The notes beneath the pieces were generated by a model, which did no database searches, had not been told where the DNA came from, and worked only from the letters and a program-made list of their open reading frames with translations. Both the position numbers and the translations under genes were made by a program. Below, in pieces: positions 18,773 to 51,136 of a stretch of 64,000 nucleotides of DNA (positions are counted from its first letter, which is position 1; each line of letters starts with the position of its first letter). The stretch is from Maylandia zebra (Eukaryota; Chordata; Actinopteri; Cichliformes; Cichlidae), in assembly GCF_041146795.1 (NCBI RefSeq), contig NC_135184.1:5655467-5719466 (forward strand). The letters are read 5' to 3'.

Positions 18773-20434
18773 CTATTTCACTTTAATCAACTCAGATGTG
18801 GCTCCATAATAAAGCCAAAGTCCAGCATAGAGTGGCTGAGTGAATGTGGTCTGGACTCTGTGGAGGAGAGTCATGGTTTCAGAGACGCTGTAGAAGGACA
18901 AGATACCTGCTCTGTGATCCAGGTACACTCCTACTCTGGAGGAACGAGGACCTGAGACAGGAGTTTGGATGTTGTTGTACCAAAATGTAAAACTGTTGTT
19001 GTTACAATCTAATGACCAAGATTTGTCATTATGTCCAAATTTACATTCATTACTATTCCCTGCTCTGCTGATATTCTTGTATGCGACTGCTACATAAACT
19101 CCCCCTCTCCACTCCACCTCCCAGTAACAACGTCCAGTCAGACTCTCTCTACTCAGAACCTGAAACCACCAAGTGAATCTGTCTGGATGATCAGAATAAG
19201 ACTGTTGTTGATTCATTACTGTTGCTTTTCTGTTCCCCTCTGATAATAACAGCTGTTTGTGTGCTGTGTTTGGATCCAGTGTGATTTCACATGAATATTT
19301 TAAGAATCCAGCTCTGGTCTTTGGCTCTGCTGGTGGATCTGACAGTAAAACATCCACTTCAGTGACTGTCAGTGAGATGTTTGTCCATTGCTCTCTCAGA
19401 ATGTCCTGTAGTTTATCTCTGACCTCTGACACAGCTGCTGTCACATCCTCAAAGTAGCTCAGAGGACGGATATTGATGCTGGATGAGTCTGTAGACTCAC
19501 TGAGTGCTGACAGTGAGGGGTAGTTGTGTAGAAACTGGATGTGATCCTCTGTGTGTGAGAGCTGCTTCAGCTCAGCATCTTTCCTCTTCAGCTCAGTGAT
19601 CTCCTGCTCCAGCTTCTCCTGAAGCTCTTTGACTCGACTCACTTCAGTTTCCTGCTGGGATCTGATCTGCTGCTTCACATCAGAGCTTCTTTTCTGGATG
19701 AGATGGATCAGCTCAGTGAAGATCTTCTCACTGTGCTCCACTGTTTGATCAGCAGACTGATTGATGGCCTCCACCTCCTGTTGAAGCAGCTTCACATCTT
19801 TCTCTCTGTCCTGGATTCTCTGCTGGATGTTTTGTCGACTCACCTCCAGCTCTCTCTGCCTCTCAGTCCTTTCTGCTGCAGCTGAGACTGTGTCGTGGCC
19901 TTTATGTTCATCCACAGAGCAGAGATAACAGATACTCTGCTGATCAGTACGGCAGAACATCTTCATCACCTCATCATGACGAGAGCAGATGTTCTCCTGG
20001 AGCTTCTTGGAGGGCTCCACCAGCTTGTGTTTCTTTAATGGAACCACATCATAATGAGTCTGAAGGTGTTTCTCACAGTAAGATGCCAGACAGACTAAAC
20101 AGGACTTGAAGGCTTTCATTTTTCTCCCAGTGCAGACATCACAGGCCACATCTTCAGGTCCAGCATAGCAGTGATCAGCAGGAGCAGCTTGGAGTCCAGT
20201 CTTCTTCAGCTCCTCCACTAAATCTGCTAACATGGTGTTTTTCATCAGGACAGGCCTCGCTGTGAAAGTCCTCCGGCACTGAGGGCAGCTGTAGATTTTC
20301 TTCTTTTCCTCTTCATCCCAGAAGCTTTTAATACAGTTCATGCAGTAGCTGTGTCCACAGGGAATAGTCACCGGATCCTTCAGTAGATCCAAACAGACTG
20401 AACAGCAGAATTTTGTTTGATCCATTTGATTCAT
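18773..20434 (-). CDS. TRIM copy 2
   Basis: An intact 553-residue frame with all RING, B-box1 and B-box2 metal ligands kept. The N-terminal half differs from copy 1 at only a few positions; the RING ends CRRTF as in copies 1 and 3. The variable stretch after B-box1 reads LQTHYDVVPLKKHKL. The PRY-SPRY part carries HKQLLLSEGNRK, as in copy 5, its duplication partner, but SCEITLDPNTAH, MNQQQ and DCNNNSFTFWYNN, as in copy 3. The gene is therefore a patchwork. Its last residues read LWLYYGATSELIKVK. It has the same start context and promoter motif as the other copies and is probably functional. Confidence 0.9.
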   Translation of the reverse strand: MNQMDQTKFCCSVCLDLLKDPVTIPCGHSYCMNCIKSFWDEEEKKKIYSCPQCRRTFTARPVLMKNTMLADLVEELKKTGLQAAPADHCYAGPEDVACDVCTGRKMKAFKSCLVCLASYCEKHLQTHYDVVPLKKHKLVEPSKKLQENICSRHDEVMKMFCRTDQQSICYLCSVDEHKGHDTVSAAAERTERQRELEVSRQNIQQRIQDREKDVKLLQQEVEAINQSADQTVEHSEKIFTELIHLIQKRSSDVKQQIRSQQETEVSRVKELQEKLEQEITELKRKDAELKQLSHTEDHIQFLHNYPSLSALSESTDSSSINIRPLSYFEDVTAAVSEVRDKLQDILREQWTNISLTVTEVDVLLSDPPAEPKTRAGFLKYSCEITLDPNTAHKQLLLSEGNRKATVMNQQQSYSDHPDRFTWWFQVLSRESLTGRCYWEVEWRGGVYVAVAYKNISRAGNSNECKFGHNDKSWSLDCNNNSFTFWYNNIQTPVSGPRSSRVGVYLDHRAGILSFYSVSETMTLLHRVQTTFTQPLYAGLWLYYGATSELIKVK

Positions 20435-20473
20435 GTGCTGTGCCGTTTCACCGTCTCTCAGTGACTGTCAGAC

Positions 20474-20487
20474 AGTTTCACTTCCTC
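20474..20487 (-). promoter_or_regulatory. ISRE/EICE-like element, TRIM copy 2
   Basis: Identical to the motif of copy 1 (AGTTTCACTTCCTC on the plus strand), at the same distance from the start codon. Confidence 0.5.
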
Positions 20488-20726
20488 TGAACAGAAACAA
20501 CCTCTGTGCTCTGAAGGGAAACAGATCTCTGCTCTTGTTCACCTCCTACAGGAAATGAGGCTCACCAGCAACTGCATTTACACCATGTTGTTTAGACCCA
20601 TCCTGATACAGACACATCTGTGAAGGGAGGCGCTAAAGAAATATTCTTACTGAGCGACCAAGAGCCAATCACATGATGCAGGGTGTGGTATGTTTGGTTA
20701 CAGCATGCAGTAACAAGTCTGACCCA

Positions 20727-22550
20727 GTTAAATTTTAACAATTCATTTCTTCATGGTGCAAATATATAGTAGACTCAGGAGTTTAACTCAGTTTTCTTGG
20801 CCTTTGTTTATCGTTTCATTTAAAATCTTAATGTGTAAAGATCATCATAATTACATATGAAATTATATGTACAAATTATATCTTCCATTACACTTTTAAC
20901 AGCACAGATTATATAGCAAACATCAGATTCATGGATGGAGCCAGAGGCTAAATGACTGTTCAGTCCTCTTTAGGAAACGATCTTCATATGACGACAAACA
21001 CGACAACAATCAGCTGTCAAACTGTACAAGAAGTTCACAGTAATGTAAAAGAAGTTATATCACTTTATTTTTAAATGTACGCACTCAGGGTCAGGACTGA
21101 AGACACTGATCGAGAAAATACTCTAAATATAAATATTCACCTAAACATTCAAAATTATTCAATTGCATGAAAAGAAATATGAACTCTCTACAATACTGGC
21201 TTCTGATTGGTTGAAAAAGCAGGTGCTGAACTTCAGAAGAGCTAAAGCTGCAAAACTGTGTAAACCCAGAGTGGATGCTGCCCTCTGACCTTTCAGAAGT
21301 ACGATCTTTTTATGAAGACACAGAGGCAGAATTATTATTCATCACTTTAAAGATGATATTCGTTACATGTTCTTCACTCGTTGTCTAGTAAAGTCCAGAG
21401 AATGAGACACATGATTTCAAAACATACAGCTGCATGTTAGAGATCACAGAGTTCTTCAGTCTTATGAGAACTCATGGAGACTAAATGTCAGACACATCAA
21501 CAGTAAATGTCGTTCCTCCCCCCGTGAGTTTGTGTCCTCCACACTTGTTTACACAAACATCTGAGGTTTGAACAGTGTGCAAAACCACATGTTACAAAGC
21601 TGCTGAGCTACTGAATACTGGAATATTTCATTCAATATCACCATCTGACCAAAGGACAAACACAGAGAGGATTAGAGCGCCAAACTTTGTTTCAAACTGT
21701 TTCAGATTTTAGAGGCAAAAAGCAGAATTTCTACCTGGACAAAGAAATCAAAGCAGGAGAAAAACAAGCTTTTTACATTTATTCAAAGGCATTATGTGAA
21801 TGTACTCTGAGCCACAGCCTCCTAAAGTAAAGACATTTGATCATCTAAACCAGACAGAGTCATGTTTTCAGCAGTGTCTGTATCCTCCATATAGACCATG
21901 CCATGGTCCACCTAGGGTGAGCAGGTGTCTGACTTTATGTGGGACTACACAGCGCTCAGTCCTTGTTTGCCTGTGCCACACACACATTGAGCCAATGTCC
22001 AGTTTTTTTATTGACTCTAGTTTCTGTCGATCGCTAGGCCCACAAAAAAACCCTGTACAGGAAGTAGATTTCATCTCTCTGATAAAAGGAGTTCTAATCC
22101 CTGATCCTATGAGTCTGAGCCAGTAGATGATATTTATATGATCATATTTATGCCTTTGTTGTTTCACAAAGGGTTAAAAACATTCACAGGTTGGACTGTG
22201 GTTCTCCTTTTAGCGTCTCTGCTGGAATTTTAACTGTGAACCTCTTAGATCCAAACTTCTGAACTGCTCATCTCACAGAGGACAAAAGGGAAGAACTCAG
22301 AATCTCTTCTTCACCTCACTTTTATACCTGCTCACCCTTTCTCCCCCCTTCCCTCACTGGACGTCACATCTTCACACTTGGGCCAATCAGGTTGTTGACA
22401 TTTGATCATCTGATGTCCACCCACACCTCATCTCTCTCTCTCTCTCTGACTCACAAGATTTAACACAAAGTTTAAACTTTAAAATCACTTCATTACATTT
22501 TCTTTGTTATTCTTAACACAGAAAATTCACATTCAAAAACTTAACACAGA
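20727..22550. other. Upstream flank of TRIM copy 2, no gene found
   Basis: Anonymous DNA repeated at 51427-53250. A 108-codon open frame (21800-22126) is kept in both copies, but its few differences change amino acids and no domain is recognised. A short (TC)n tract lies near 22434. Confidence 0.5.
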
Positions 22551-22559
22551 ATAAAACAG

Positions 22560-22800
22560 AGTAGCCAGTAGTGGGACATGGTTCCAGCAACTCTGATGGT
22601 GACGGCCCGTTTGAAGCTGAAGCTCCGGCACGTGTGTCAAAAAATCAACACACTGCTTCAGAAACGCTGTGCTGAGGCTTGGTTTGACTGAACAGAGTCA
22701 CGTGATCAATGACGACTGAAGCTTCATTCAGCACGTCACTGCTTCAGTACCTGATTCAATGATTTATTGAAATCATTGGTGGGATTTTTGCCGTGTTTTG
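22560..22800. mobile_element. hAT-like DNA transposon relic
   Basis: The wording AGTAGTGGGACATGGTTCC, then CTGCTTCAGAAACGCTGTGC and GAAGCTTCATTCAGCACGTC, resembles ends of fish hAT elements. No transposase is visible. The same relic occurs at 53268-53510, so it predates the duplication. Confidence 0.4.
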
Positions 22801-23054
22801 GTGATTTTGTGAGAGCGAATCAGTGTGTCACATAATTATAGACATGGAGCCAGGAAGAGAGGACGCTCTGCCTGTTCCTGAATAAAAACCAGTTCATCAG
22901 CATTTCTGCTCCCAGGTCTAAAATGTACATAAGAAATATGATGTACACATAATTATAATGATATAACTTATAGTATATTATATATAAACGTACCAGTCTG
23001 CTGGTTAATTACATAATCAGGTGGAGGCAGTGACCTCACAACCTCCTATAAGCT

Positions 23055-25115
23055 TTAAGTTAAGGTTACTTTATTTATACCCACAGGTAAATTTGCTTTA
23101 CAGAACAATGATAGCATTTGGCCTCCCTTCACAAACACACACACCTAATGAAACCTGACAAAACACATATTTAGTAATTAAACAAAGTGAATCAAATCAA
23201 AAACAATTCTTCTTGAGTTCAGTGACAGCAGCAGGGACAAAGCTGTTTTTATAATGCTTTGTCCTGCATCTTGGAACTAGAAACCTCCGTCCTGAAGAAA
23301 GAAGCTAAATCCACCCCGTAGAGGATGGGAACCATTTTTAAGGATTGATTAAGCCATCTGTGGTACCTGTTTAGAGTACAGGGAGTCTAAACAGGCCTGT
23401 GACTCATCTATCAGACGACTGGACCATCTCACTAACTAATTCAGTCAATTTTTCTCTGTGACAGAGGTCTGACTGAACCATGGCACCAAACAAAAAGATA
23501 AAACAGACTCAATAAAAGAACAAGAAAACAAAGTTAAAATCTTTCGCTCAATGTGGAAATGAGCAAGTTTCCTGAGGCAGTAAAGGCACTGGTGACCCTT
23601 TTTACAGACCGATTTGCAATAAAAGTTCCGTTTTCATTGATTATGGTCCCAAGATATTTATATGATTGCACTTGCTCTATTTTCTGACCTTTAATTAAAG
23701 TGACTCTGTGCCCATTTAGTTGTTTCCTAAAATCAATAACCCTATCTTTTGTTTTAGATATGTTCAATTGGAGATAAGACTCCTCCCACCACTGAACAAA
23801 GTCATCTATGATTGGACCGTGGTGAGTTTCACCCTCTTTCAGTAAGCTGACAATAACAAAGTCATCTGTAAATTTAATGATGGCCCTGTTTTCATATCTG
23901 CTCTGACACGTGTTTGTAAAGAGAATGAATAATAAGGGCGATAAGAGACCCTGGAGGAGAAGCTGTGGAGGAGAACACTGGGTCAGACAGAACCCCATTT
24001 ATTCTCACGCTTTGTGACCTGTCAGTTAACTCATTCACTGCCAGCCATGAGTCAACGTATGCTTTCAATTGACGTCTATAGACGTCAATGGCAGTGAATG
24101 AGTTAAAAGATCTAAAATCCAGCAAACCAGGTTTTTCCTGATTTCAAACTCTTCTAAAAGTCTTTTCATTAAAATATGGGGCTGTATTGTATTAAAAGCT
24201 GAAGAAAAATCAATGAAAAGAAGTCTTGCAAAAGTCCCTTTACTCTCTACATGTTTAAGAATCAGATTTAGTCAAAAGCGCGTCCTGCACTCCTCTGTTG
24301 GGCCTGTGCGCAAATTGCATTGGATCCAGCTGATATTCAATCTCTTCCATAATCACATTTCTGATGATGTTTTCAAAGACTTTCATGACAACTCAGGTGA
24401 GGCAACAGGCCTGAAGTCATTCAGGACGTTTGGACGACTAGATTTAGGGACATGAACGACGACAGCTTCCTTCCAAAGCGAGGGCACATTTTGTATTTGA
24501 AAGGATTTATTGAAAATAAGCTGAAATTTAGGACTGAGCTCTTTAGCACAAGATTTAATTAGGCGGCACTAATGTTATCAGGGCCCTGGCTCTTGTTCAC
24601 ATTAACTGTATGAAAGGCCTTTTGGACATCGCTGAGTTCAGTGATGAAGTGTTGAGTATCTTTCAGTTTCTGTTTCAGTTCAGAAGAACTAAAACGAGCA
24701 TCAAGCATATTCAAATCTCTGTCTGGCTTAAAACCGTCTACAATGATCTGACTGCTGCTCTGGGGATTTTGAAACCCTGATATGGTTTTCATACAAGTCC
24801 AGGCAGACCCAAAACGTTTTGCAGCAAATTTGCTTTCAAGAAGGTTTTTGTAGATCTGTTTTGCTTTCAAGAGCTCGATTTTCAAGTCTTTGGTGACTGC
24901 CTGAAAGTCAGGAACAGCCCCCTCTTTAAAAGCCTGTCTCTTTTTCCTTAAACAGGATTTGATGCATTTGGTGACCCATGGCTTATTGTTAGGGTACACT
25001 TTAGCATGCTTAAGGGGTATAATCATGTCTTTACAAAAACTGCATATGAGCTAACATCCACCAAAGCATCAAGACTGAATAAAAACTTCCCAATCTGTAA
25101 ATTAAAAACATTCCT
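23055..25115 (-). mobile_element. CR1/L2-clade LINE relic in unit A1
   Basis: The minus strand carries the ORF2 linker (24559-25026: YPNNKPWVTKCIKSCLRKK, then LKAKQIYKNLLESKF), followed by damaged RT. The later RT part (23534-23998) has FTDDFVIVSLL (catalytic box, with TDD) and WWEESYLQLNISKTKD. The 3' end lies near 23055 with an AATAAAGTAACCTTAACTT-type tail. The endonuclease part is missing and several frame breaks are present, so the copy is dead. It is interrupted by a MITE at 24030-24102. Confidence 0.75.
24030..24102. mobile_element. piggyBac-type MITE with TTAA target duplication
   Basis: 73 bp with perfect 14-bp terminal inverted repeats (CTCATTCACTGCCA / TGGCAGTGAATGAG), flanked by TTAA on both sides (24026-24029 and 24103-24106). 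The middle holds a palindrome (TTGACGTCTATAGACGTCAA). The paralogous site at 54734-54737 has a single TTAA and no insert, which is a clean empty site. TTAA targeting is the hallmark of piggyBac elements. Confidence 0.85.
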
Positions 25116-26311
25116 GCAAGGTAAGCACAGATTCTTCTGACCACATGATTGATTGATGATAACATAATTTTTTCACCCCCCAAAAATTCATGTTCAAAGC
25201 AACATATCAGCCCGATATCACACAGAACTGTCACATGACATCAAACACAAGCTGTCAGCTCTGCAGAGTGGGCAATCATAATGAAGCAGTTCATTATAAG
25301 CTGCAGACTCAAGCTGCTCTTCATATATTTGTCCACCAGATGTCACCAAAGAGGACTGTGATGAAAGCTTCGAGTAATGAACCGTTTTTCATTACAAGCT
25401 TGGCCAACTGACTACAATCTACAATAAACTAATATGGCTTTTCAATCCTCTCTTCAATCACTTGGTACCACCAGGAACCTTTAAATGGGCACTCAAGCTG
25501 CCTGGAGACTGTTTTGTCGTGCACATCAGAGAAACCACAGGTAAGACAATCTTATCCAAAAGGTCAGTGTAACAGTATTGTTTTCCACCAGCTTAACCAA
25601 ACTTCCCACACTAACTGAAATTTCTTTTCCCAGGCAAACATTAAACAGCAGCAGCTGGAAAACTGGAAAACCTAAAGCCAAATAATCAATAAGACATAAC
25701 AAACTTTTGTATGAGTGAGTATTGATAAACTGAGCAGAATTAAACCTCAGTGAAACCACATAAGTTCTGGTAACTGGCACATATTTATGTTTAATATGTT
25801 GTTTTATATTTTGATCAGTTTCAGGTGTTTGTGCGACTGTGTTAACCATCAGTAAAACCACATATAAATCACACTTCTGTGTTTAACAATTACAACACTT
25901 GATGCTGTTTTTCTGATTCAGGATTATGTGTGTGATGAGTTGGCCACACAGTTCTTATCTTTCTGCTTCAGACACACACAAAACTGCCGAGGTTGAAGCT
26001 TCAGTCTCTTTCTACCCCAGGTCTCACCACATTTCCAAAATGTAAACTCTGAGTCTCATAAGAAATGTGGTTCAAAAAGATGTGCTGATCTATGAATGCA
26101 TCCTTACTGAAAGCTAAAGATGTCCAGCAGACAAAAACAGCAGCTGAATGAACAGTTATCATGAGCGAGTGTACAAACACTATCACAGGAAATAACAGAA
26201 ATAAACTGTAGTTTCCATTTATACCTGTAGTATTTTTTCAGCTCCATGTCATCTTCCAATATGTCAAAATATGATTTCATTGTATCTTAAACAAATACAA
26301 ACTTCTTTCTT
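25116..26311. other. Remaining flank of unit A1
   Basis: Anonymous DNA matching 55746-56948. Small open frames present in both units have no recognisable domains. The part near 25300-25390 may belong to a hAT-like relic. Confidence 0.4.
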
Positions 26312-27098
26312 CCCCCCAGAGAGCCAACAGTTTACTATCAGAACTGAGGCTGATCATTAACAGGGAGCAGCAGGTAACAAGGTCATCAGCAGTGGAGGAA
26401 AGTATGGAAGTAATACTCAGCTTCATATTTGAAGATACTCGAGTATCTTAGCTGCAGGTCTGGAACAATGGTTTTATTTCCTTTCCCATTAAACATCTCA
26501 CACAGCCCTCATCTGTGACCCTTAGCAAACCCACTGGATATCTACCTGCACATAAAGGAGATCAGATCAGTTCCATCTAGACCAGCTGTAACAGGAAAAT
26601 GCTGCTTACACTTTGATGCATCACTTTCAGTTTGTCATATAAGACAATATATCAGATTGAGGCATTATTTTCCTGCAGTGAGTAAATCTACTTTGAACTT
26701 TACTCTTTTCTTTTAGGTAAAGGCTCTAAACAGTACTTGTACACTGTGGAAATCCCATAAGAACGTCTCCTGAACTCTGAAAAATAACAAAACAAAGACT
26801 AAAAGGAGGTCATGGGTGCTGATGATGATGATGATGATGAGGAGGAGTAGCATGCATTTAAAAAGTGACTGATGTCCTAGAATACAACAGAACAGTGTCT
26901 CTACAAACTTATGAAAACATGACAGTCTTGCATTAGTTTGTATTCTTATGATTTCAAAAAACGAGGGAAAAATCTCCTTGAAATGCACAATTCCTTTTTG
27001 TTATTTCTTAGTGTGTGACGTATTTTATTGGCTTTATGATTGGTGCAAACAGTTTCCTGATTCATAATGGAAATAGATTTTAGACACAGGAGGAACAC

Positions 27099-27139
27099 GC
27101 AGTGATCAGCAGGAGCAGCTTGGAGTCCAGTCTTCTTCA
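27099..27139 (-). pseudogene. 41-bp TRIM scrap (RING to B-box1 linker)
   Basis: Matches the TRIM coding segment for KKTGLQAAPADHC. Flanking bases do not match the gene. It is repeated at 36106-36146 because it lies in the 4.3-kb duplication. Probably the last trace of an older TRIM copy. Confidence 0.65.
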
Positions 27140-28326
27140 CACTGAGGAGGGACATATATGCAGGAACAGTTGTCATAACTGTTACAACCACCAGATGGCG
27201 AAAGAGTCCCACTGCAACTTTAAGCCATGAAGGATGTGTCTTGATGTTTGCTTGTGATAAATCTGCTTTATGTGAGTCTTTTTCAGAAAGTAACAGTAAT
27301 ATGTCTGATTATATGTCTTTAATCAGTAAAGTCTCGCTTTGCTAGAGATCAATAAATAATAAAATTGTAAACATGCAGCTGTATGTTAGAAGTCAAAGGG
27401 TCCTTAAGTCTTCTGTAAATTGACGGGGATCAAATGAAGGACACAAGTATCTGTTCTTACTCTAATAAATGCTGCTTTAATATCCAACAGACTATTTTCC
27501 TTCCTCATCAGCAGCAAACAGCTCGACTGCGTCTGTGCATTTGTGTCCTCCATACTTGTTTCCACAGACATCTCAGGCTTGATGCCACGATGCAGTGTAG
27601 AAACCTGACAACCCTCTGACTCATGTTCAAATGTTCAAGGACATTTCTCAGGATCATGTATGACCCCTTTTTGACATTTGGACTTTCATTAATAATATTT
27701 GTGTTTCTGAGTCATTTTTGTGGAGACTTCTGTCCAACGTAGTGTCCAAATGAAGCCTGAAGCTTTTCTTCACCCTCTTGTCAGATGGTCAGCAACAAAA
27801 CTCTGTTCCAACCAATGTCTGATAAGAGATGAGACACAGCAGCTGAGCAAATGATCATTTCATGCTGAAGACATCCTCAGACAGAATTAAATACATACAT
27901 AAACACAGCCTGGTGCCAATAACACAGCTAATGACACTGCTGTATCACTGGCTTTACTGATTAAAGACCATATCTGAAGGAAATCTTTGAACACAACAGA
28001 AAGTGACCTTTTAAACCTGCGACACTGATGCTGCATTCAAGGACCGTTACAAACATCTGAAAGGACTTAAGAACATGAAGAAAATGTGACTTGTTTCTCT
28101 GTAATGAAGCTGCTTTAGTGAAGAAAGTTGAAAGGTCACAGAGTGACTGCTGAATCTTCTGCTCTAAACATGAACTCTGAACTTTGTGATGCTTCAGGAG
28201 GAAAACTGCTTCAGTTATTCTCTCAGATTAGTTTCATATTTTCTGCATCAGATTTGAGTGAGATCCTGCAATGAAGACAGAAGAAAAGACTTTGTTCAAA
28301 GTTTGATTTATAGTCAAACCTTCCAG

Positions 28327-28759: not shown

Positions 28760-30418
28760 CTATTTGAGCTTAATCAACTCAGCAGTGGCTCCAACATAGT
28801 GAAGCCAAAGTGCAGCATAGAGCGGCTGAGTGAATGTGGTCTGGACTCTGTGGAGGAGAGTCATGGTTTCAGAGACGCTGTAGAAGGACAAAATACCTGC
28901 TCTGTGATCCAGGTACACTCCTACTCTGGAGGAACGAGGACCTGAGACAGGAGTTTTGATGTTGTTGTACCAAAATGTAAAACTGTTGTTGTTACAATCT
29001 AATGACCAAGATTTGTCATTATGTCCAAATTTACATTCATTACCTCCTGCTCTGCTGATATTCTTGTATGCGACTGCTACATAAACTCCTCCCCCTCTCC
29101 ACTCCACCTCCCAGTAACAACGTCCAGTCAGACTCTCTCTACTCAGGACCTGCCACCATCTAGTGAATCTGTCTGGATGATCAGAATAAGACTGTTGTTG
29201 ATTCATTAATGTTGCTTTTCTGTTCCCCTCTGATAATAACAGCCATGTGTGTGCTGTGTTTGGATCCAGTGTGATTTCACATGAATATTTTAAGAATCCA
29301 GCTCTGGTCTTTGGCTGTGGTTGTGACAGTAAAACATCCACTTCAGTGACTGTCAGTGAGATGTTTGTCCATTCCTCTCTCAGAATGTCCTGTAGTTTAT
29401 CTCTGACCTCTGACACAGCTGCTGTCACATCCTCAAAGTAGCTCAGAGGACGGATATTGATGCTGGATGAGTCTGTAGACTCACTGAGTGCTGACAGTGA
29501 GGGGTAGTTGTGTAGAAACTGGATGTGATCCTCTGTGTGTGAGAGCTGCTTCAGCTCAGCATCTTTCCTCTTCAGCTCAGTGATCTCCTGCTCCAGCTTC
29601 TCCTGAAGCTCTTTGACTCGACTCACTTCAGTTTCCTGCTGGGATCTGATCTGCTGCTTCACATCAGAGCTTCTTTTCTGGATGAGATGGATCAGCTCAG
29701 TGAAGATCTTCTCACTGTGCTCCACTGTTTGATCAGCAGACTGATTGATGGCCTCCACCTCCTGTTGAAGCAGCTTCACATCTTTCTCTCTGTCCTGGAT
29801 TCTCTGCTGGATGTTTTGTCGACTCACCTCCAGCTCTCTCTGCCTCTCAGTCCTTTCTGCTGCAGCTGAGACTGTGTCGTGGCCTTTATGTTCATCCACA
29901 GGGCAGAGATAACAGATACTCTGCTGATCAGTACGGCAGAACATCTTCATCACCTCATCATGACGAGAGCAGATGTTCTCCTGGAGCTTCTTGGAGGGCT
30001 CCACCAGCTTGTGTTTCTTTAACTGAGCTGCTACATAATGAGGCTTAAGGTGTTTCTCACAGTAAGATGTCAAACAGACTAAACAGGACTGTAAAGCTTT
30101 CATTTTTCTTCCAGTGCAGACATCACAGGCCACATCTTCAGGTCCAGCATAGCAGTGATCAGCAGGAGCAGCTTGGAGTCCAGTCTTCTTCAGCTCCTCC
30201 ACTAAATCTGCTAACATGGTGTTTTTCTCCAGGACAGGCCTCGCTGTGAAAGTCCTCCGGCACTGAGGGCAGCTGTAGATTTTCTTCTTTTCCTCTTCAT
30301 CCCAGAAGCTTTTAATACAGTTCATGCAGTAGCTGTGTCCACAGGGAATAGCCACCGGATCCTTCAGTAGATCCAAACAGACTGAACAGCAGAATTTTGT
30401 TTGGTCCATTTGATTCAT
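28760..30418 (-). CDS. TRIM copy 3
   Basis: An intact 552-residue frame with complete zinc-binding residues. It is marked by DPVAIPCGH in the RING (the other copies have DPVTI), ALQSCLVCLTSYC in B-box1, LKPHYVAAQLKKHKL in the variable stretch, and CPVDEHKGH in B-box2. The PRY start reads LSQPQPKTRAG, shared in part with copy 4, and RFTRWWQVL is unique. The end, AELIKLK, is shared with copy 4. Its B-box1 edge and SPRY domain differ strongly from copy 4, although the DNA downstream of the two genes is nearly identical. Confidence 0.9.
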   Translation of the reverse strand: MNQMDQTKFCCSVCLDLLKDPVAIPCGHSYCMNCIKSFWDEEEKKKIYSCPQCRRTFTARPVLEKNTMLADLVEELKKTGLQAAPADHCYAGPEDVACDVCTGRKMKALQSCLVCLTSYCEKHLKPHYVAAQLKKHKLVEPSKKLQENICSRHDEVMKMFCRTDQQSICYLCPVDEHKGHDTVSAAAERTERQRELEVSRQNIQQRIQDREKDVKLLQQEVEAINQSADQTVEHSEKIFTELIHLIQKRSSDVKQQIRSQQETEVSRVKELQEKLEQEITELKRKDAELKQLSHTEDHIQFLHNYPSLSALSESTDSSSINIRPLSYFEDVTAAVSEVRDKLQDILREEWTNISLTVTEVDVLLSQPQPKTRAGFLKYSCEITLDPNTAHTWLLLSEGNRKATLMNQQQSYSDHPDRFTRWWQVLSRESLTGRCYWEVEWRGGGVYVAVAYKNISRAGGNECKFGHNDKSWSLDCNNNSFTFWYNNIKTPVSGPRSSRVGVYLDHRAGILSFYSVSETMTLLHRVQTTFTQPLYAALWLHYVGATAELIKLK

Positions 30419-34960: not shown

Positions 34961-36105
34961 AAATGAGGGGTGTCAAACATAAGGCTCGTGGGTCAGATTC
35001 GGCATGAAAAATTCTCCATCTGACCCGCTGGATGCTCTTTCAGTCAAGCATATTACATTAACTGATTAAAGATACACAACTATCACCTTTCAAAAGACAC
35101 GGACAAGTCAGCCAGTAATGGGAAACACATGATGCATTTAAAGTTTATGTTCAACTGTAAAATATTCTCTGTAATGTAAATTGTTCTGCTCTCTGACAAA
35201 CCATCAGAGGTGCAGCACGTGTATCATTTGGTGTTTGAAGCAGAAAAAAAAGCAAAGAGTTAAAGGAAGACACATTTGAAAAAGAAGGAAAATGAAAACA
35301 AGACGTCACTGAGCAACAACCTGACAGAACGAGAGCCAACAGTTTACTATCAGAACTGAGGCTGATCATTAACAGGGAGCAGCAGGTAACAAGGTCATCA
35401 GCAGTGGAGGAAAGTATGGAAGTAATACTCAGCTTCATATTTGAAGATACTCGAGTATCTTAGCTGCAGGTCTGGAACAATGGTTTTATTTCCTTTCCCA
35501 TTAAACATCTCACACAGCCCCTCATCTGTGACCCTTAGCAAACCCACTGGATATCTACCTGCACATAAAGGAGATCAGATCAGTTCCATCTAGACCAGCT
35601 GTAACAGGAAAATGCTGATTACACTTTGATGCATCACTTTCAGTTTGTCATATAAGACAATATATCAGATTGAGGCATTATTTTCCTGCAGTGAGTAAAT
35701 CTACTTTGTACTTTACTCTTTTCTTTTAGGTAAAGGCTCTAAACAGTACTTGTACACTGTGGAAATCCCATAAGAACGTCTCCTGAACTCTGAAAAATAA
35801 CAAAACAAAGACTAAAAGGAGGTCATGGGTGCTGATGATGATGATGAGGAGGAGTAGCATGCATTTAAAAAGTGACTGATGTCCTAGAATACAACAGAAC
35901 AGTGTCTCTACAAACTTATGAAAACATGACAGTCTTGCATTAGTTTGTATTCTTATGATTTCAAAAAACGAGGGAAAAATCTCCTTGAAATGCACAATTC
36001 CTTTTTGTTATTTCTTAGTGTGTGACGTATTTTATTGGCTTTATGATTGGTGCAAACAGTTTCCTGATTCATAATGGAAATAGATTTTAGACACAGGAGG
36101 AACAC

Positions 36106-36146
36106 GCAGTGATCAGCAGGAGCAGCTTGGAGTCCAGTCTTCTTCA
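36106..36146 (-). pseudogene. 41-bp TRIM scrap, second copy
   Basis: Duplicate of the scrap at 27099-27139, carried along by the 4.3-kb duplication. Confidence 0.65.
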
Positions 36147-37333
36147 CACTGAGGAGGGACATATATGCAGGAACAGTTGTCATAACTGTTACAACCACCA
36201 GATGGCGAAAGAGTCCCACTGCAACTTTAAGCCATGAAGGATGTGTCTTGATGTTTGCTTGTGATAAATCTGCTTTATGTGAGTCTTTTTCAGAAAGTAA
36301 CAGTAATATGTCTGATTATATGTCTTTAATCAGTAAAGTCTCGCTTTGCTAGAGATCAATAAATAATAAAATTGTAAACATGCAGCTGTATGTTAGAAGT
36401 CAAAGGGTCCTTAAGTCTTCTGTAAATTGACGGGGATCAAATGAAGGACACAAGTATCTGTTCTTACTCTAATAAATGCTGCTTTAATATCCAACAGACT
36501 ATTTTCCTTCCTCATCAGCAGCAAACAGCTCGACTGCGTCTGTGCATTTGTGTCCTCCATACTTGTTTCCACAGACATCTCAGGCTTGATGCCACGATGC
36601 AGTGTAGAAACCTGACAACCCTCTGACTCATGTTCAAATGTTCAAGGACATTTCTCAGGATCATGTATGACCCCTTTTTGACATTTGGACTTTCATTAAT
36701 AATATTTGTGTTTCTGAGTCATTTTTGTGGAGACTTCTGTCCAACGTAGTGTCCAAATGAAGCCTGAAGCTTTTCTTCACCCTCTCGTCAGATGGTCAGC
36801 AACAAAACTCTGTTCCAACCAATGTCTGATAAGAGATGAGACACAGCAGCTGAGCAAATGATCATTTCATGCTGAAGACATCCTCAGACAAAATTAAACA
36901 CATACATAAACACAGCCTGGTGCCAATAACACAGCTAATGACACTGCTGTATCACTGGCTTTACTGATTAAAGACCATATCTGAAGGAAATCTTTGAACA
37001 CAACAGAAAGTGACCTTTTAAACCTGCCACACTGATGCTGCATTCAAGGACCATTAAAAACATTTGAAAGGACTTAAGAACATCAAGAAAATGTGACTTG
37101 TTTCTCTGTAATGAGGCTGTTTTAGTGAAGAAAGTTGAAAGGTCACAGAGCGACTGCTGAATCTTCTGCTCTAAACATGAACTCTGAACTTTGTGATGCT
37201 TCAGGAGGAAAACTGCTTCAGTTATTCTCTCAGATTAGTTTCATATTTTCTGCATCAGATTTGAGTGAGATCCTGGAATGAAGACAGAGGAAAAGACTTT
37301 GTTCAAAGTTTGATTTATAGTCAAACCTTCCAG

Positions 37334-37766: not shown

Positions 37767-39428
37767 CTATTTGAGCTTAATCAACTCAGCTGTGTCTCCA
37801 TAATAGTGAAGCCAAAGTCCAGCATAGAGCGGCTGAGTGAATGTGGTCTGGACTCTGTGGAGGAGAGTCATGGTTTCAGAGACGCTGTAGAAGGACAAAA
37901 TACCTGCTCTGTGATCCAGGTACACTCCTACTCTGGAGGAACGAGGACCTGAGACAGGAGTTTTGATGTTGTTGTACCAACATGTAAAACTGTTGTTGTT
38001 ACAATATAATGACCAAGATTTGTAATTATGTCCAAATGTACATTCATCACTATTCCCTGCTTTGCTGATATTCTTGTATGCGACTGCAACAGAAACTCCC
38101 CCTCTCCACTCCACCTCCCAGTAACAACGTCCAGTCAGACTCTCTCTACTCAGGACCTGCTGCCATCCAGTGAATCTGTCTGGATGATCAGAATAAGACT
38201 GTTGTTGTTTCATTGCTGTTGCTTTTCTGTTCCCCTCTGATAATAACAGCCATTTGTTTGCTGTGTTTGGATCCAGTGTGATTTCACGTGAATATTTTAA
38301 GAATTCAGCTCTGGTCTTTGGCTGTGGTTGTGGCAGTAAAACATCCACTTCAGTGACTGTCAGTGAGATGTTTTTCCATTCCTCTCTCAGAATGTCCTGT
38401 AGTTTATCTCTGACCTCTGACACAGCTGCTGTCACATCCTCAAAGTAGCTCAGAGGACGGATATTGATGCTGGATGAGTCTGTAGACTCACTGAGTGCTG
38501 ACAGTGAGGGGTAGTTGTGTAGAAACTGGATGTGATCCTCTGTGTGTGAGAGCTGCTTCAGCTCAGCATCTTTCCTCTTCAGCTCAGTGATCTCCTGCTC
38601 CAGCTTCTCCTGAAGCTCTTTGACTCGACTCACTTCAGTTCCCTGCTGGGATCTGATCTGCTGCTTCACATCAGAGCTTCTTTTCTGGATGAGATGGATC
38701 AGCTCAGTGAAGATCTTCTCACTGTGCTCCACTGTTTGATCAGCAGACTGATTGATGGCCTCCACCTCCTGTTGAAGCAGCTTCACATCTTTCTCTCTGT
38801 CCTGGATTCTCTGCTGGATGTTTTGTCGACTCACCTCCAGCTCTCCCTGCCTCTCAGTCCTTTCTGCTGCAGCTGAGACTGTGTCGTGGCCTTTATGTTC
38901 ATCCACAGAGCAGAGATAACAGATACTCTGCTGATCAGTACGGCAGAACATCATCTTCACCTCATCATGACGAGAGCAGATGTTCTCCTGGAGCTTCTTG
39001 GAGGGCTCCACCAGCTTGTGTTTCTTGAATGAATCTGCAACAATATTATGACTCTGAAGGTGTTTCTCACAGTAAGATGCCAGACAGACTAAACAGGACT
39101 TGAATGCTTTCATTTTTCTTCCAGTGCAGACATCACAGGCCACATCTTCAGGTCCAGCATAGCAGTGATCAGCAGGAGCAGCTTGGAGTCCAGTCTTCTT
39201 CAGCTCCTCCACTAAATCTGCTAACATGGTGCTTTTCTCCAGGACAGGCCTCGCTGTGAAAGTCTGTCTGCACTGAGGGCAGCTGTAGATTTTCTTCTTT
39301 TCCTCTTCATCCCAGAAGCTTTTAATACAGTTCATGCAGTAGCTGTGTCCACAGGGAATAGTCACCGGATCCTTCAGTAGATCCAAACAGACTGAACAGC
39401 AGAATTTTGTTTGATCCATTTGATTCAT
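37767..39428 (-). CDS. TRIM copy 4
   Basis: An intact 553-residue frame with all ligands kept. This is the most distinctive N-terminal half: CRQTF at the RING end (shared only with copy 5), EKSTML, LQSHNIVADSFKKHKL (one residue longer than the others), EVKMMF in B-box2, and QGELEV and QQGTEV in the coiled coil. The PRY-SPRY part has LPQPQPKTRAEF, RFTGWQQVL (shared with copy 5), CTFGHNYKSWSLYC and IKTPVSGP (shared with copy 3). Its downstream flank matches copy 3 and its upstream flank matches copy 1, so the locus may be a recombinant. Its IRF-like promoter site is altered. Confidence 0.9.
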   Translation of the reverse strand: MNQMDQTKFCCSVCLDLLKDPVTIPCGHSYCMNCIKSFWDEEEKKKIYSCPQCRQTFTARPVLEKSTMLADLVEELKKTGLQAAPADHCYAGPEDVACDVCTGRKMKAFKSCLVCLASYCEKHLQSHNIVADSFKKHKLVEPSKKLQENICSRHDEVKMMFCRTDQQSICYLCSVDEHKGHDTVSAAAERTERQGELEVSRQNIQQRIQDREKDVKLLQQEVEAINQSADQTVEHSEKIFTELIHLIQKRSSDVKQQIRSQQGTEVSRVKELQEKLEQEITELKRKDAELKQLSHTEDHIQFLHNYPSLSALSESTDSSSINIRPLSYFEDVTAAVSEVRDKLQDILREEWKNISLTVTEVDVLLPQPQPKTRAEFLKYSREITLDPNTANKWLLLSEGNRKATAMKQQQSYSDHPDRFTGWQQVLSRESLTGRCYWEVEWRGGVSVAVAYKNISKAGNSDECTFGHNYKSWSLYCNNNSFTCWYNNIKTPVSGPRSSRVGVYLDHRAGILSFYSVSETMTLLHRVQTTFTQPLYAGLWLHYYGDTAELIKLK

Positions 39429-39950
39429 GTGCTGTGCCGTTTCACCGTCTCTCAGTGACTGTCAGACAGTTTGACTTCCTCTGAACAGAAACAACCTCTG
39501 TGCTCTGAAGGGAAACAGATCTCTGCTCTTGTTCACCTCCTACAGGAAATGAGGCTCACCAGCAACTGCATTTACACCATGTTGTTTAGACCCATCCTGA
39601 TACAGACACATCTGTGAAGGGAGGCACTAAAGAAATATTCTTACAGAGCAACCAAGAGCCAATCACATGATGCAGGGTGTGGTATGTTTGGTTACAGCAT
39701 GCAGTAACAAGTCTGACCCAGGCAAACTGGTTTAACTGGTTTAAACTGCTAAAATTAGTTTCAACTGGGTCAGCCCAGTTTAACTTTTCTTGAGTTATGA
39801 CAGTCAACACTCAGCGAGTTCATTTTATATTTCAAAAAGTTCAGCAAAGTTTAGGATGCTGTGATGAATAAAAATAAATCAAACTTTATATTTTGACATT
39901 TTCTAATCTTAGTTCATTCTCACACTTACAGAATGATGCATGGGAACAAC
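39429..39950 (-). repeat. Upstream flank of TRIM copy 4, shared with copy 1
   Basis: Follows the copy 1 flank to the GGGAACAAC block, where a LINE-like segment begins instead of the copy 1 sequence. Confidence 0.7.
39468..39481 (-). promoter_or_regulatory. Altered ISRE/EICE-like element, TRIM copy 4
   Basis: Reads AGTTTGACTTCCTC on the plus strand: the base at 39473 is G where the other four copies have C. On the gene strand GAAAC becomes CAAAC, removing the IRF half-site while keeping the ETS-type GGAAG. Confidence 0.5.
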
Positions 39951-43835: not shown

Positions 43836-44653
43836 GACAGAGACTGAAGTCACTGCAAGAGCATACTTTCGCTGTGGAGCAATTACACAGGTGTTTTTAT
43901 TTTGTCTGACAGGTTAGACAGGAATGTGTAGATGTAAACAGAATGAGCATGCATAGCATGTTTATGACACTGGTTAGTTTTGCTTTTGGTTAGCCTTCTT
44001 CTTAACACCATTAATTCAGTCTATTTTCATGGTACACACTTTCTCTGAAAGTAAAAAAAAAAGTATGACATTAAACTGGGATAGAGCATTCATTAAAGAG
44101 AAGGTTCAAATTCTTAAAGTCCATCTTAAATAGTCTTTCTCAATCAGAAACAGCTATGGGCAGATGTTATGGTTCAAAAAGCAGCAAGATAGCAGGTTGA
44201 AATGTGAGGCCAGTACGTTCTCTCTAATTACTGGCGGGAGTTCAATTTGCTCTCTAAAAAAGAAAATCTGACTGTATAAAATACACACACTACTGCTCTA
44301 AAGTTTTAGACTGCTGGCTACTCCATGTTTTCAAGCTTACTATCAAAATATATGGAGTTATAATGAATAAACTTTGTACTTAATATCACAATATTTTATA
44401 ATCTTACTTCCTTCTGACACTTTTGGAATAAGACATGGGAACAACTGTCTCCAATAAATCAGACTAATTACCAAGTAACTTATTCATAATGGAAACTCCA
44501 ATTTAAGAATTTAAAAGATGACATCATCAAAACCAAACAAACAGTCCATTTAAATTACTAACGTTTTTGTAAGTGTGTAAGAAATCTTCTAAAAAATCTT
44601 TTTCATTTCATCATTTCGAGCTCACAGAAGTTTACAGTTTCATGTAAACGTCA
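43836..44653. other. Intergenic DNA with a trace of TRIM flank
   Basis: Near 44395-44475 the bases resemble the far upstream flank of copy 1 (the CATGGGAACAACTG block), much diverged. No genes. Confidence 0.4.
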
Positions 44654-44760
44654 GTCGTGGCCTTTATGTTCATCCACAGAGCAGAGATAACAGATACTCT
44701 GCTGATCAGTACAGCAGAACATCTTCATCACCTCATCATAACAGGACTTGAAAGCTTCAG
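44654..44760 (-). pseudogene. TRIM relic (B-box2 and B-box1 pieces)
   Basis: The first about 87 bases match the B-box2 coding part of the TRIM copies (from GTCGTGGCCTTTATGTTC onward). The sequence then jumps to the ACAGGACTTGAAAGCTT block of B-box1, the intervening stretch being lost. The rest of the gene is gone. It marks a sixth, dead TRIM copy between copies 4 and 5. Confidence 0.85.
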
Positions 44761-47644: not shown

Positions 47645-48130
47645 GATTCACACTGATGGATGAAGCCCATCAGTGTGAATCCCTTCATAGACGCCTTTGT
47701 GCAAAGCACCTCCTGCCCAGTTCCACCTCTCATCACTCAAGCTTCATTCAAGTCACCTTCATCTCCATCACCAGCATCTAGGCTCTGGGGGGTCCTGCTC
47801 TAATCTGTTTCACAGCTGGAGCTCCGTTCTGCAGAGAGACAGACCACCAAACACCTTTGTACATTCTGTTCATCAATAAATCATCTTCATTCTTTCTGAC
47901 GATCTCTCCTTATTTAAATGAATGAATGAATGAATGAATGAATGAATGAATGAATGCTTTATTGGCCATATGCAGGTTGCCCCACAGAGGAATAGGACCC
48001 CCCCCCCCCCCCGACTTACACACACAACAAAGACATCACATGGGAATACAGTCGGAGATCGGCAGCGTTGCAGAGAATAACATTGAAAAAAAATTACACA
48101 ACAATGGGATGAAGCCCATCAGTGTGAATC
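47645..48130. repeat. Hairpin and 24-bp direct repeats around a 425-bp insert
   Basis: Arms GATTCACACTGATGG (47645-47659) and its exact reverse complement (47667-47681) form a hairpin. A 24-bp string starting GGATGAAGCCCATCAGTG occurs at 47658-47681 and again at 48107-48130. The DNA between contains an AATG tandem tract (about 47918-47956) followed by TTTATTGGCC, a reverse LINE-type 3' tail, and a run of about 15 C. The interval looks inserted or duplicated. Confidence 0.6.
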
Positions 48131-48722
48131 TTCTCTTCTGCTACAACGTCACCTGCTGTCTTCAATCCTCCATACCCGACAGTAACAGCTGACTGTTGTG
48201 TTGAGCGTCTTTGTGAGATCTGTTAAATGTAAAGTTCATAAATCCACTACACTTTTTGTCAATGTTTGTTTTTCTGGTCTCATTCCTGGAGCTGCCAAAA
48301 AGCAGAGGTGGCAAAAGTGCAGACGTTCTGTATTTAAATAGAAGTACAGATACTCGTGTTACTCAACTAAGAGTAAAAAAGTTCAGGCTCTGAAATAAAG
48401 CTTCTGTGTGAGTTCAATAAGAAATATCTATGGTCTCACATCTGTCCAGGTGCTGCCGGCTGAATCTAAGCTTTATCACTTCCACTGTCAAGCTGTTTGT
48501 GTCATCACTGGCCTGGTCCAATCACATTCTCCCGGTCTTCTCCAGGCCAATCACCATTCATGCTGCGTGCTTTAAATCTCACTGTGCATCTGTCATTCTT
48601 TCACTTGTTAACCTGCAGGAAGACAAAACTTCACTGAGCCTTCAGCAGCTTGAACATCATCAGTAAAGACAGATTTAAATATGTGTAATATCACACTGTG
48701 TCAGTTTGTTCACAGGAGTCAC
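48131..48722. other. Intergenic DNA, no gene found
   Basis: Only a 78-codon frame (48430-48666) without domain support. Confidence 0.4.
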
Positions 48723-49035
48723 AACCTGTAACACTGATGCTGCATTCAAGGACCATTAAAAACATTTGAAAGGACTTAAGAACATGAAGAAAATGTGACT
48801 TGTTTCTCTGTAATGAAGCTGTTTTAGTGAAGAAAGTTGAAAGGTCACAGAGCGACTGCTGAATCTTCTGCTCTAAACATGAACTCTGAACTTTGTGATG
48901 CTTCAGGAGGAAAACTGCTTCAGTTATTCTCTCAGATTAGTTTCATATTTTCTGCATCAGATTTGAGTGAGATCCTGGAATGAAGACAGAAGAAAAGACT
49001 TTGTTCAAAGTTTGATTTATAGTCAAACCTTCCAG

Positions 49036-49041
49036 TTTATT
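49036..49041 (-). terminator. Poly(A) signal, TRIM copy 5
   Basis: AATAAA on the minus strand at the conserved position. Confidence 0.6.
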
Positions 49042-49468
49042 CACACAATAAAACATCAACACAATATATGAATTCATTCATTAAAATCACAGTTTTTCCT
49101 CATTTGTTTGATGATTTTGACCAAAACAAACACAAACACACACACATGGTCTGCCATACTCATAAAGAGAAATGTCGACATTGTTCAAGACAAGTATTCC
49201 AGAAACATTTAGAGGATAGAGAAGTTTACATTTTCATGTGGAGAAATATTTTAGTAAATCAAAATGATGATGAGCAGTGATAGCCTCCATAAACAGTCAC
49301 AGGAAAGATCTCCTTTAAAAACTCAGAAACATCAAGAGAACAACTAGAAGATGTGGAGGTACCACCCATAATGTTTGACTGACAGCTGATCTCTGTGCAG
49401 AAATGATGGAGAGAAAATAAAATGAAACTAAAATACAGATTTAAACCCACAATATGAAAGACTTCAGT

Positions 49469-51136
49469 CTATTTCACTTTAATCAACTCAGCAGTGGCTC
49501 CATAATTATAGTAAACCAACAGTCCAGCATAGAGCGGCTGAGTGAATGTGGTCTGGACTCTGTGGAGGAGAGTCATGGTTTCAGAGACGCTGTAGAAGGA
49601 CAAAATACCTGCTCTGTGATCCAGGTACACTCCTACTCTGGAGGACTGAGGACCTGAGACAGGAGTTTGGATGTTGTTGTACAAAAATGTATAACTGTTG
49701 TTGTAATAATCTAATGACCAAGATTTGTCATTACGTCCAAAAACACACTCATTACCCTCTCCTTTTCTGCTGATATTCTTGTATGTGACTGCCACATAAA
49801 CTTGTTCTCCACTCCACTCCACCTCCCAGTAACAACGTCCAGTCAGACTCTCTCTACTCAGGACCTGCTGCCATCCAGTGAATCTGTCTGGATGATCAGA
49901 ATAAGACTGTTGTTGATACACTACTGTTACTTTTCTGTTCCCCTCTGATAATAACAGCTGTTTGTGTGCTGTGTTTGGATCCAGTGTGATTTCACGTGAA
50001 TATTTTAAGAATCCAGCTCTGGTCTTTGGCTCTGGTGGATCTGACAGTAAAACATCCACTTCAGTGACTGTCAGTGAGATGTTTGTCCATTGCTCTCTCA
50101 GAATGTCCTGTAGTTTATCTCTGACCTCTGACACAGCTGCTGTCACATCCTCAAAGTAGCTCAGAGGACGGATATTGATGCTGGATGAGTCTGTAGACTC
50201 ACTGAGTGCTGACAGTGAGGGGTAGTTGTGTAGAAACTGGATGTGATCCTCTGTGTGTGAGAGCTGCTTCAGCTCAGCATCTTTCCTCTTCAGCTCAGTG
50301 ATCTCCTGCTCCAGCTTCTCCTGAAGCTCTTTGACTCGACTCACTTCAGTTTCCTGCTGGGATCTGATCTGCTGCTTCACATCAGAGCTTCTTTTCTGGA
50401 TGAGATGGATCAGCTCAGTGAAGATCTTCTCACTGTGCTCCACTGTTTGATCAGCAGACTGATTGATGGCCTCCACCTCCTGTTGAAGCAGCTTCACATC
50501 TTTCTCTCTGTCCTGGATTCTCTGCTGGATGTTTTGTCGACTCACCTCCAGCTCTCTCTGCCTCTCAGTCCTTTCTGCTGCAGCTGAGACTGTGTCGTGG
50601 CCTTTATGTTCATCCACAGAGCAGAGATAACAGATACTCTGCTGATCAGTACGGCAGAACATCTTCATCACCTCATCATGACGAGAGCAGATGTTCTCCT
50701 GGAGCTTCTTGGAGGGCTCCACCAGCTTGTGTGTTTCAAATGCGGAGGATATAAAATGAGGCTGAAGGTGTTTCTCACAGTAAGAGACCAAACACACCAA
50801 ACAGGACTTGAAGGCTTTCATTTTTCTTCCAGTGCAGACATCACAGGCCACATCTTCATGTCCAGCATAGCAGTGATCAGCAGGAGCAGCTTGGAGTCCA
50901 GTCTTCTTCAGCTCCTCCACTAAATCTGCTAACATGGTGTTTTTCACCAGGACAGGCCTCGCTGTGAAAGTCTGTCTGCACTGAGGGCAGCTGTAGATTT
51001 TCTTCTTTTCCTCTTCATCCCAGAAGCTTTTAATACAGTTCATGCAGTAGCTGTGTCCACAGGGAATAGTCACCGGATCCTTCAGTAGATCCAAACAGAC
51101 CGAACAGCAGAATTTTGTTTGATCCATTTGATTCAT
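49469..51136 (-). CDS. TRIM copy 5
   Basis: An intact 555-residue frame with the full zinc-binding set. The RING ends CRQTF, as in copy 4. It has YAGHEDVAC where the others have YAGPEDVAC. The stretch after B-box1 is the most unlike the rest (LQPHFISSAFETHKL). The coiled coil matches the consensus. The SPRY has its own loops: KVTVVYQQQ, RFTGWQQVL (as copy 4), SGEQVYVAVTYKN, RKGEGNECVFGRND, and DYYNNSYTFLYNN (as copy 1). It ends LLVYYNYGATAELIKVK. Its duplication partner by flank is copy 2, with which it shares REQWTN and HKQLLLSEGNRK but not the tracts named above. Confidence 0.9.
   Translation of the reverse strand: MNQMDQTKFCCSVCLDLLKDPVTIPCGHSYCMNCIKSFWDEEEKKKIYSCPQCRQTFTARPVLVKNTMLADLVEELKKTGLQAAPADHCYAGHEDVACDVCTGRKMKAFKSCLVCLVSYCEKHLQPHFISSAFETHKLVEPSKKLQENICSRHDEVMKMFCRTDQQSICYLCSVDEHKGHDTVSAAAERTERQRELEVSRQNIQQRIQDREKDVKLLQQEVEAINQSADQTVEHSEKIFTELIHLIQKRSSDVKQQIRSQQETEVSRVKELQEKLEQEITELKRKDAELKQLSHTEDHIQFLHNYPSLSALSESTDSSSINIRPLSYFEDVTAAVSEVRDKLQDILREQWTNISLTVTEVDVLLSDPPEPKTRAGFLKYSREITLDPNTAHKQLLLSEGNRKVTVVYQQQSYSDHPDRFTGWQQVLSRESLTGRCYWEVEWSGEQVYVAVTYKNISRKGEGNECVFGRNDKSWSLDYYNNSYTFLYNNIQTPVSGPQSSRVGVYLDHRAGILSFYSVSETMTLLHRVQTTFTQPLYAGLLVYYNYGATAELIKVK

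Follow-up and report, generated by a model that had tools for sequence, protein, structure and literature searches.

Conflicting tract relationships and a nearly uniform coiled-coil core in a clustered single-exon TRIM gene family of Maylandia zebra

Introduction

A stretch of 64,000 nucleotides of the genome of the cichlid Maylandia zebra (assembly GCF_041146795.1; contig NC_135184.1, here C18; C18:5655467-5719466), hereafter the window, carries five TRIM genes, all of them intact, single-exon open reading frames (ORFs) of 552-555 amino acids on the minus strand (Table 1). The coding bodies of these genes are mosaics, in which different tracts pair the copies in different ways; very probably, the family to which they belong mixes its coding body by non-crossover gene conversion, its B-box2/coiled-coil core being homogenised and the variants of its variable islands probably being kept by selection. 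The domain order of TRIM (RBCC-B30.2) proteins, namely RING, B-box, TRIM_CC, PRY, and SPRY, was found above the Pfam cut-offs in copies 1 and 5, which the scan covered, while copies 2-4 were assigned by alignment; the protein identity of copies 2-5 to copy 1 is 91-95%. The closest solved structures are those of TRIM25 for the RING-to-coiled-coil part and of TRIM16 or TRIM16-like for PRY-SPRY.

Conflicting Trees among the Five Copies

An earlier note on this DNA had proposed that gene conversion shuffles short tracts among the five genes, on the grounds that flanks and coding motifs pair the copies differently. The quoted pairings are all present: alignment places DYYNNSYTFLYNN in copies 1 and 5, SCEITLDPNTAH and DCNNNSFTFWYNN in copies 2 and 3, and CRQTF and RFTGWQQVL in copies 4 and 5; by self-BLAST, the flanks of copies 2 and 5 are common over 18027-26311/48723-56948 (in two pieces), those of copies 3 and 4 over 26319-30628/35331-39638, and those of copies 1 and 4 over 6267-9386/36837-39950. 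The range assigned to the mosaic, 18773..51136, encloses four copies but leaves outside copy 1, which two of the quoted pairings need. The flank pairings, real as they are, mainly record the history of duplication and could alone fit one tree; the evidence for conversion lies in the contrast between flank and island divergence.

The trees of the coding segments disagree beyond homoplasy, as in an interlocus gene-conversion family. The 41 two-state informative sites of the common unit of about 2.7 kb cover each of the 10 splits possible with five copies, and 14 of the sites fit the best single tree (9 of 31 after collapsing same-pattern sites within 6 bp); the best topology changes along the unit, from 13|2|45 in the RING to 25|1|34 before and in PRY, 15|2|34 in the late SPRY, and 12|4|35 in the 3' flank. 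Nine segments require 17 extra parsimony steps on one tree compared with their own trees (13 when collapsed); simulations on the best tree with segment-specific branch lengths peaked at 11 and 12 excess steps, none of the 1000 replicates at either of two rate settings matching the observed conflict, with or without collapsing, so that one tree for all segments is rejected. The pairwise homoplasy index (PHI) gave p=0.0002 (p=0.011 with clustered sites collapsed), and a 3SEQ-like test reached its permutation floor (p=2.5e-4) for 3 of 30 triplets, and for 1 once the clusters were collapsed. On the assumption of at most one change per site, the unit requires at least 16 exchanges, and the nine silent or noncoding sites alone at least 4 (minimum number of recombination events, Rm, 4). 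Columns 1-90 of the unit alignment were excluded from the PHI, 3SEQ-like, approximately unbiased (AU), simulation, GENECONV-like, and minimum-exchange tests, and gapped columns were dropped before counting; for two uninformative segments the AU table holds fewer than 15 topologies.

Variable Islands and Flank Clocks

Silent variation among the five copies is concentrated in islands: at fourfold-degenerate (4-fold) sites, the pair-site differences amount to 14/62 over columns 108-137 (island A, in a region which we take to be B-box1), 19/154 over columns 434-492, and 12/65 at the C terminus, versus 0/900 over columns 138-385. The codons of residues invariant in the five copies are silent-polymorphic in 9/57 cases in the islands versus 7/407 elsewhere (Fisher p=2e-5), a comparison which, like every other test of islands against the rest, is descriptive, the island limits having been drawn after the variation was seen. 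Since the same pattern is seen at silent sites, it is very unlikely to be the product of selection acting on one tree.

The flanks private to a pair within the window provide a clock for the duplications. Copies 2 and 5 differ by 1.09% in their private flank and by 1/741 (0.13%) in the core, versus 21/90 (23.3%) in the B-box1 island and 29/279 (10.4%) in the SPRY island; copies 3 and 4 differ at 3/1481 sites (0.20%) in the private flank and at 9/744 in the core, versus 15/90 (16.7%) and 16/276 (5.8%) in the two islands. In the adjacent noncoding sequence common to other copies, the latter pair rises to 18/1164 (1.55%; Fisher p=1.8e-4 against the private flank), and the rise starts about where multi-copy homology starts. 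The private flank of copies 1 and 4, at 1/229, is not significantly below 16/1223 (p=0.50), being too short to tell. The silent sites suggest that the variable tracts are older than the duplications which carry them.

Two isolated TRIM fragments lie between the genes. A 41-bp sequence, found at 27099-27139 and 36106-36146 in the flank exclusive to copies 3 and 4, is 100% identical to all five genes in their TRIM coding sequence (about aa 75-89); in 50 resamples, no match exceeded 18 bp. At 44612-44742, an 89-bp fragment (44654-44742), which has 97.8% identity with copies 1, 2, and 5 at about aa 151-181, adjoins a 34-bp match of 82% to sequence 3' of the genes; it is either a relic or a templated insertion.

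Probable Exchange between Two Clades of a Larger Family

A genome search with copy 5 as query revealed at least 78 relatives, of which at least 49 are on C18 (4.10-5.82 Mb) and at least 29 on contig C3 (19.6-22.0 Mb); the counts are lower bounds, 78 of 2052 first-look candidates having been scored. The open frame is free of stop codons in 77 of the 78, and in prokaryote genome contigs 33 pattern matches yielded 0 relatives. All 49 scored C18 copies and 8 of the 29 scored C3 copies were compared; the partial L046 was left out of the haplotype counts, and L038 and L040-L047, which lie on C18 outside both clades, out of the clade tests. According to their first codons, the remaining C18 copies fall into a clade of 26 window-like copies (24 on the minus strand) and a clade of 14 others at 4.2-4.6 Mb (13 on the plus strand). 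Compared across clades, 8 of the 14 have no matching 5' flank and 6 show a match of 41 bp; in the 3' flank, 12 reach about 77% identity and 2 are unmatched.

With flanks so diverged, the loci hold common tracts inside, as in an interlocus gene-conversion family. The fixation index (Fst) between clades falls from 0.847 at aa 1-35 to 0.37 at aa 36-75 and then to 0.012 and 0.014 in island A and the core, respectively; at 4-fold sites, it is 0.695 at aa 1-35, 0.061 in island A, -0.004 in the core, and 0.21 at the C terminus. Identical 105-bp island A tracts are found across clades (L008 and L018 with L022 and L023; L009 and L010 with L025), exact cross-clade tracts extend up to 995 bp, mostly in the core, and cross-clade runs of common variable codons exceed shuffling (p=0.001), as does sharing in the SPRY block 403-411 (p=0.02). 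The RING form CRQTF, by which copies 4 and 5 pair, occurs in 6 of 26 window-clade copies and in 11 of 14, the majority, of the other clade; L021 has the very codons 418-425 (RFTGWQQV) of copies 4 and 5. The donor pool thus includes a clade about 1 Mb away in opposite orientation, and the earlier view of a shuffling among the five paralogues is to be amended: the five are mostly not each other's donors, the pool comprising at least 49 genes of the same contig. Tract shuffling by gene conversion remains the best reading, strengthened by these other copies.

Nearly every gene is a combination of its own, 39 of 40 copies being distinct in this respect. None of the 10 comparisons between distances in the RING, island A, PRY, SPRY, and C terminus is significantly correlated in the 26 copies, rho being 0.02-0.30 over all 40, and between variable B30.2 codons the linkage, strong at distances of 1-3 codons, weakens at 4-10 and is low farther apart.

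Codons 421-423 (about 49868-49876 in copy 5) take very many forms over the 40 copies, while the adjacent codons are little varied, silent positions included.

A Nearly Uniform Core

Between island A and PRY lies a core (end of B-box2 and coiled coil) almost devoid of silent variation: the five copies show 0/510 4-fold pair-site differences over columns 207-347, and over aa 161-320 the 26 window-clade copies show zero, the two clades hardly differing there. The uniformity extends to C18 copies outside both clades; indeed, L038, L041, L042, L043, L044, and L045 differ from the consensus at 0-1 of 555 core bases, despite differences of 12-20% in the RING and of 7-19% in the SPRY (for L041 and L043, 41/216 and 26/216 in the RING, 36/336 and 52/339 in the SPRY, and 0/555 in the core). 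Exceptions are L040, L047, and, within the window clade, L036, with 10, 11, and 6 core differences, respectively. Singletons make up 31 of 41 core variants (76%), versus 25-31% in the islands, and of the 23 core codons which vary in the 26 copies, 20 change the amino acid; since core variants are mostly singletons and mostly amino-acid-changing, the uniformity looks recent rather than the result of protein constraint.

The second cluster of at least 29 related genes, at 19.6-22.0 Mb of C3, has a core of its own, nearly uniform in the 8 copies compared, which diverge there by about 1%; two copies measured against the C18 consensus differ from it at 35 and 39 of 555 bases.

Mechanism and Competing Explanations

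The family would be a young one, its single-exon members acting as one sequence pool. Non-crossover interlocus gene conversion would copy tracts between members, within and between the tandem clusters of the same contig, tract sizes apparently ranging from tens of bases to about a kilobase; it would overwrite almost all differences in the B-box2/coiled-coil core, while variants of B-box1, PRY/SPRY, and the C terminus would be retained, most likely via diversifying selection on ligand contacts, and reassorted, so that nearly every copy becomes a unique combination. Conversion, rather than another copying process, is suggested because tracts are exchanged between loci whose flanks have diverged and which mostly lie in opposite orientation, the flanks themselves not being exchanged; since the clades are in opposite orientation, crossovers between them would rearrange the chromosome. 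We prefer to think that the island variants are kept under selection, since core and islands differ in their frequency spectrum. In the C18 clades, the ratio of replacement to silent polymorphism (pN/pS), as counted without a test of significance, is 2-3 for aa 476-500 and 0.8-1.4 in the other PRY/SPRY tracts. The uniform coiled coil would let all copies co-assemble, and the exchanged tracts may generate new binding surfaces, as the earlier note had also supposed. A dedicated diversification system, in which an identical coiled coil serves co-assembly and templated replacements of roughly 30 bp or less, germline or even somatic, are aimed at B-box1 and SPRY from other genes and relic fragments, seems quite unlikely.

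Several results weigh against conversion with selected islands or carry this reading less far. Mixing is incomplete: clade structure is weakly kept in PRY/SPRY (Fst 0.03-0.09; 0.060 at 4-fold sites, p=0.026), and it persists in two inter-island segments (0.183 at aa 138-160 and 0.195 at aa 346-385) and in the C-terminal tract (0.133, and 0.21 at silent sites). In the SPRY blocks 421-423, 444-447, 458-468, 476-490, and 540-547, cross-clade sharing does not exceed independent shuffling, and recurrent mutation may thus contribute there. A same-codon test gave 56 of 62 against 28.5 expected for all shared alleles, but 12 of 14 against 11.0 for alleles needing at least two steps, which does not discriminate; with the excess lost for these alleles, the test was dropped as a proof of descent against convergence. 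Among the five, a GENECONV-like test, a check already suggested with the original proposal, found an individually significant tract in one of 10 pairs (copies 2 and 3; corrected p=0.033, 0.077 collapsed) and in none of the other nine, and the AU test on the concatenated unit rejected 5 of 15 topologies. The noncoding sequence of copies 2 and 5 common to other copies is not raised (12/1042 versus 60/5503 in the private flank), and island A of copy 5 has no donor closer than 13% among 50 copies compared. As to selection, pN/pS in island A is 0.40-0.65, which is no sign of positive selection, and a Hudson-Kreitman-Aguadé (HKA)-like comparison of silent polymorphism and divergence is not significant (p=1.0 and 0.30), so that part of the island diversity could stem from a locally raised substitution rate.

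The same patterns have to be confronted with explanations in which conversion plays a lesser part or none. Tandem duplication along one tree, with convergent changes under diversifying selection in SPRY and B-box loops mimicking mosaics, would account for the clustering of variable codons in PRY/SPRY, the C terminus, and B-box1, for the high pN/pS at aa 476-500, and for the several SPRY loops without excess block sharing, and the multi-step codon test does not tell it from descent; it is, however, already contradicted by the silent sites, which behave alike (islands 12-23% diverged in the five, core 0/900; silent Fst falling from 0.695 to about 0.06), by identical 105-bp and exact tracts of up to 995 bp between clades whose flanks are about 77% identical or unmatched, and by the four or more exchanges needed by nine silent or noncoding sites if none changed twice, and we regard it as very improbable. 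That the mosaics are assembly chimeras, reads of different copies having been joined at the identical core, is extremely improbable: most copies agree, fully or almost, over more than 500 bp of core, where short reads could switch, but the conflicts are found also inside about 450 bp of dense variable sites, the open frame is kept in 77 of 78 scored copies, and the 38.7-Mb contig, the 962-Mb assembly in 63 contigs, and the window free of N suggest long reads.

The islands might instead be local mutation hot spots, germline hypermutation of SPRY and B-box1 tracts being followed by conversion which merely spreads the results and homogenises the core. Island diversity is indeed high at silent as well as replacement sites, silent divergence to the C3 cluster is also high in some islands, the HKA-like test is not significant, and some variable codons, next to others which hardly change, differ in all three bases; nevertheless, a difference in rate alone does not predict singletons at 76% in the core and 25-31% in the islands, the low pN/pS of island A makes its variants look filtered by function, and all scored copies but one are free of stops. 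This explanation is therefore considered unlikely, and conversion with retained island variants is preferred.

Table 1: Coordinates of the features described, in positions of the window.
Feature	Position	Strand	Remarks
TRIM copy 1	7197..8864	-	555 aa single-exon ORF; Pfam PF15227, PF00643, PF25600, PF13765, PF00622
TRIM copy 2	18773..20434	-	553 aa ORF; aligned to copies 1 and 5
TRIM copy 3	28760..30418	-	552 aa ORF; aligned to other copies
TRIM copy 4	37767..39428	-	553 aa ORF; aligned to other copies
TRIM copy 5	49469..51136	-	555 aa ORF; Pfam domains; best PDB relatives TRIM25, TRIM16
Island A, copy 5 (aa 103-137, B-box1 region)	50726..50830	-	High silent and amino-acid diversity
Island A equivalents, other copies	about 8454-8558, 20024-20128, 30008-30112, 39015-39122	-	
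Homogenised core, copy 5 (aa 161-345, end of B-box2 and coiled coil)	50102..50656	-	Near-zero silent variation
PRY/SPRY variable tracts, copy 5 (aa 386-500)	49637..49981	-	Silent divergence; conflicting segment trees; short-range linkage
C-terminal variable tract, copy 5 (aa 539-555)	49472..49522	-	4-fold divergence 12/65; family diversity 15-19%
2-5 flank, exclusive within window	20731..26311 (partner about 51437-56948)		60/5503 differences, clock 1.09%
3-4 flank, exclusive within window	26319..27805 (partner 35331-36812)		3/1481 differences, clock 0.20%
1-4 flank, exclusive within window	9158..9386 (partner about 39722-39950)		1/229 differences

Other Features of the Window

The interferon-response motif GAAANNGAAA was found on neither strand within 1.5 kb upstream of the five genes, and an AlphaFold model built from the five sequences (mean predicted local distance difference test score, pLDDT, 39) is too poor for placing the variable codons on loops. 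A 454-aa ORF at 1452-2816, gag-like by eye, has a zinc-knuckle match of 20.1 bits, just below the cut-off of 20.8, while the flank common to copies 2 and 5 contains, at 23534-25026 and 55190-55657, ORFs resembling by eye pieces of a reverse transcriptase of the long interspersed nuclear element (LINE) type.

Relation to Known Systems

Variable contact tracts reassorted by conversion within a conserved framework are known from the genes of the major histocompatibility complex and of immunoglobulin V regions, which the present family resembles, the proteins being different. Exchange of this kind has already been described for another fish immune family and would here extend to TRIM genes; the uniform core, the B-box1 tract, and the flank clocks are new. 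The close precedent is that of the zebrafish NLR-B30.2 genes (Open Biol. 2016, PMC4852459), where, in the passages concerned, B30.2 is exchanged between groups which differ by a group-specific N-terminal part (NACHT), synonymous divergence (dS) within groups about equals that between groups, and gene conversion and positive selection are proposed as a source of recognition diversity. The logic, a group-specific N-terminal part joined to an exchanged B30.2, is the same; compared with what those passages describe, the window family consists of single-exon TRIMs, the exchanged part begins near codon 76, a core on one chromosome is almost without silent diversity, and variation and exchange also involve a B-box1 tract, which lies outside B30.2.

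Among fish TRIM genes, the finTRIM (ftr) family is described in passages of PMC2657112 (BMC Biol. 2009) as large, clustered, and teleost, with diversified B30.2 loops, GARD breakpoints in the RING/B-box region as well as in B30.2, and TRIM16 and TRIM25 as nearest mammalian relatives, the same two proteins which are the nearest solved relatives of the window genes. The six exons given there for the zebrafish genes contrast with the single exon of the window genes, a difference which is indecisive given the one-exon ORF in 47 of 55 medaka hits; what those passages give is breakpoints, and they contain nothing on exchange at the level of tracts, clocks in flanks, or a homogenised core. For the bloodthirsty (btr) and hltr TRIMs, passages of PMC3137616 (PLoS One 2011) report positive selection on B30.2, with seven GARD breakpoints in btr and none in hltr, and contain no per-tract or flank analysis. 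Among the matches listed for fish TRIM genes, gene conversion, concerted evolution, and expansion (titles and beginnings of abstracts, subscription journals being mostly outside), neither a homogenised coiled coil nor an exchanged B-box1 tract is described.

Conversion can be separated from selection in this family because private flanks date two of the duplications and because clades with diverged flanks hold one pool of tracts. It is suggested that combinations of tracts, rather than lineages of genes, may be the units in which the TRIM repertoires of fish should be read, that tests of selection based on trees may be unreliable on such families, and that B-box1 would merit the attention so far paid to the loops of B30.2.

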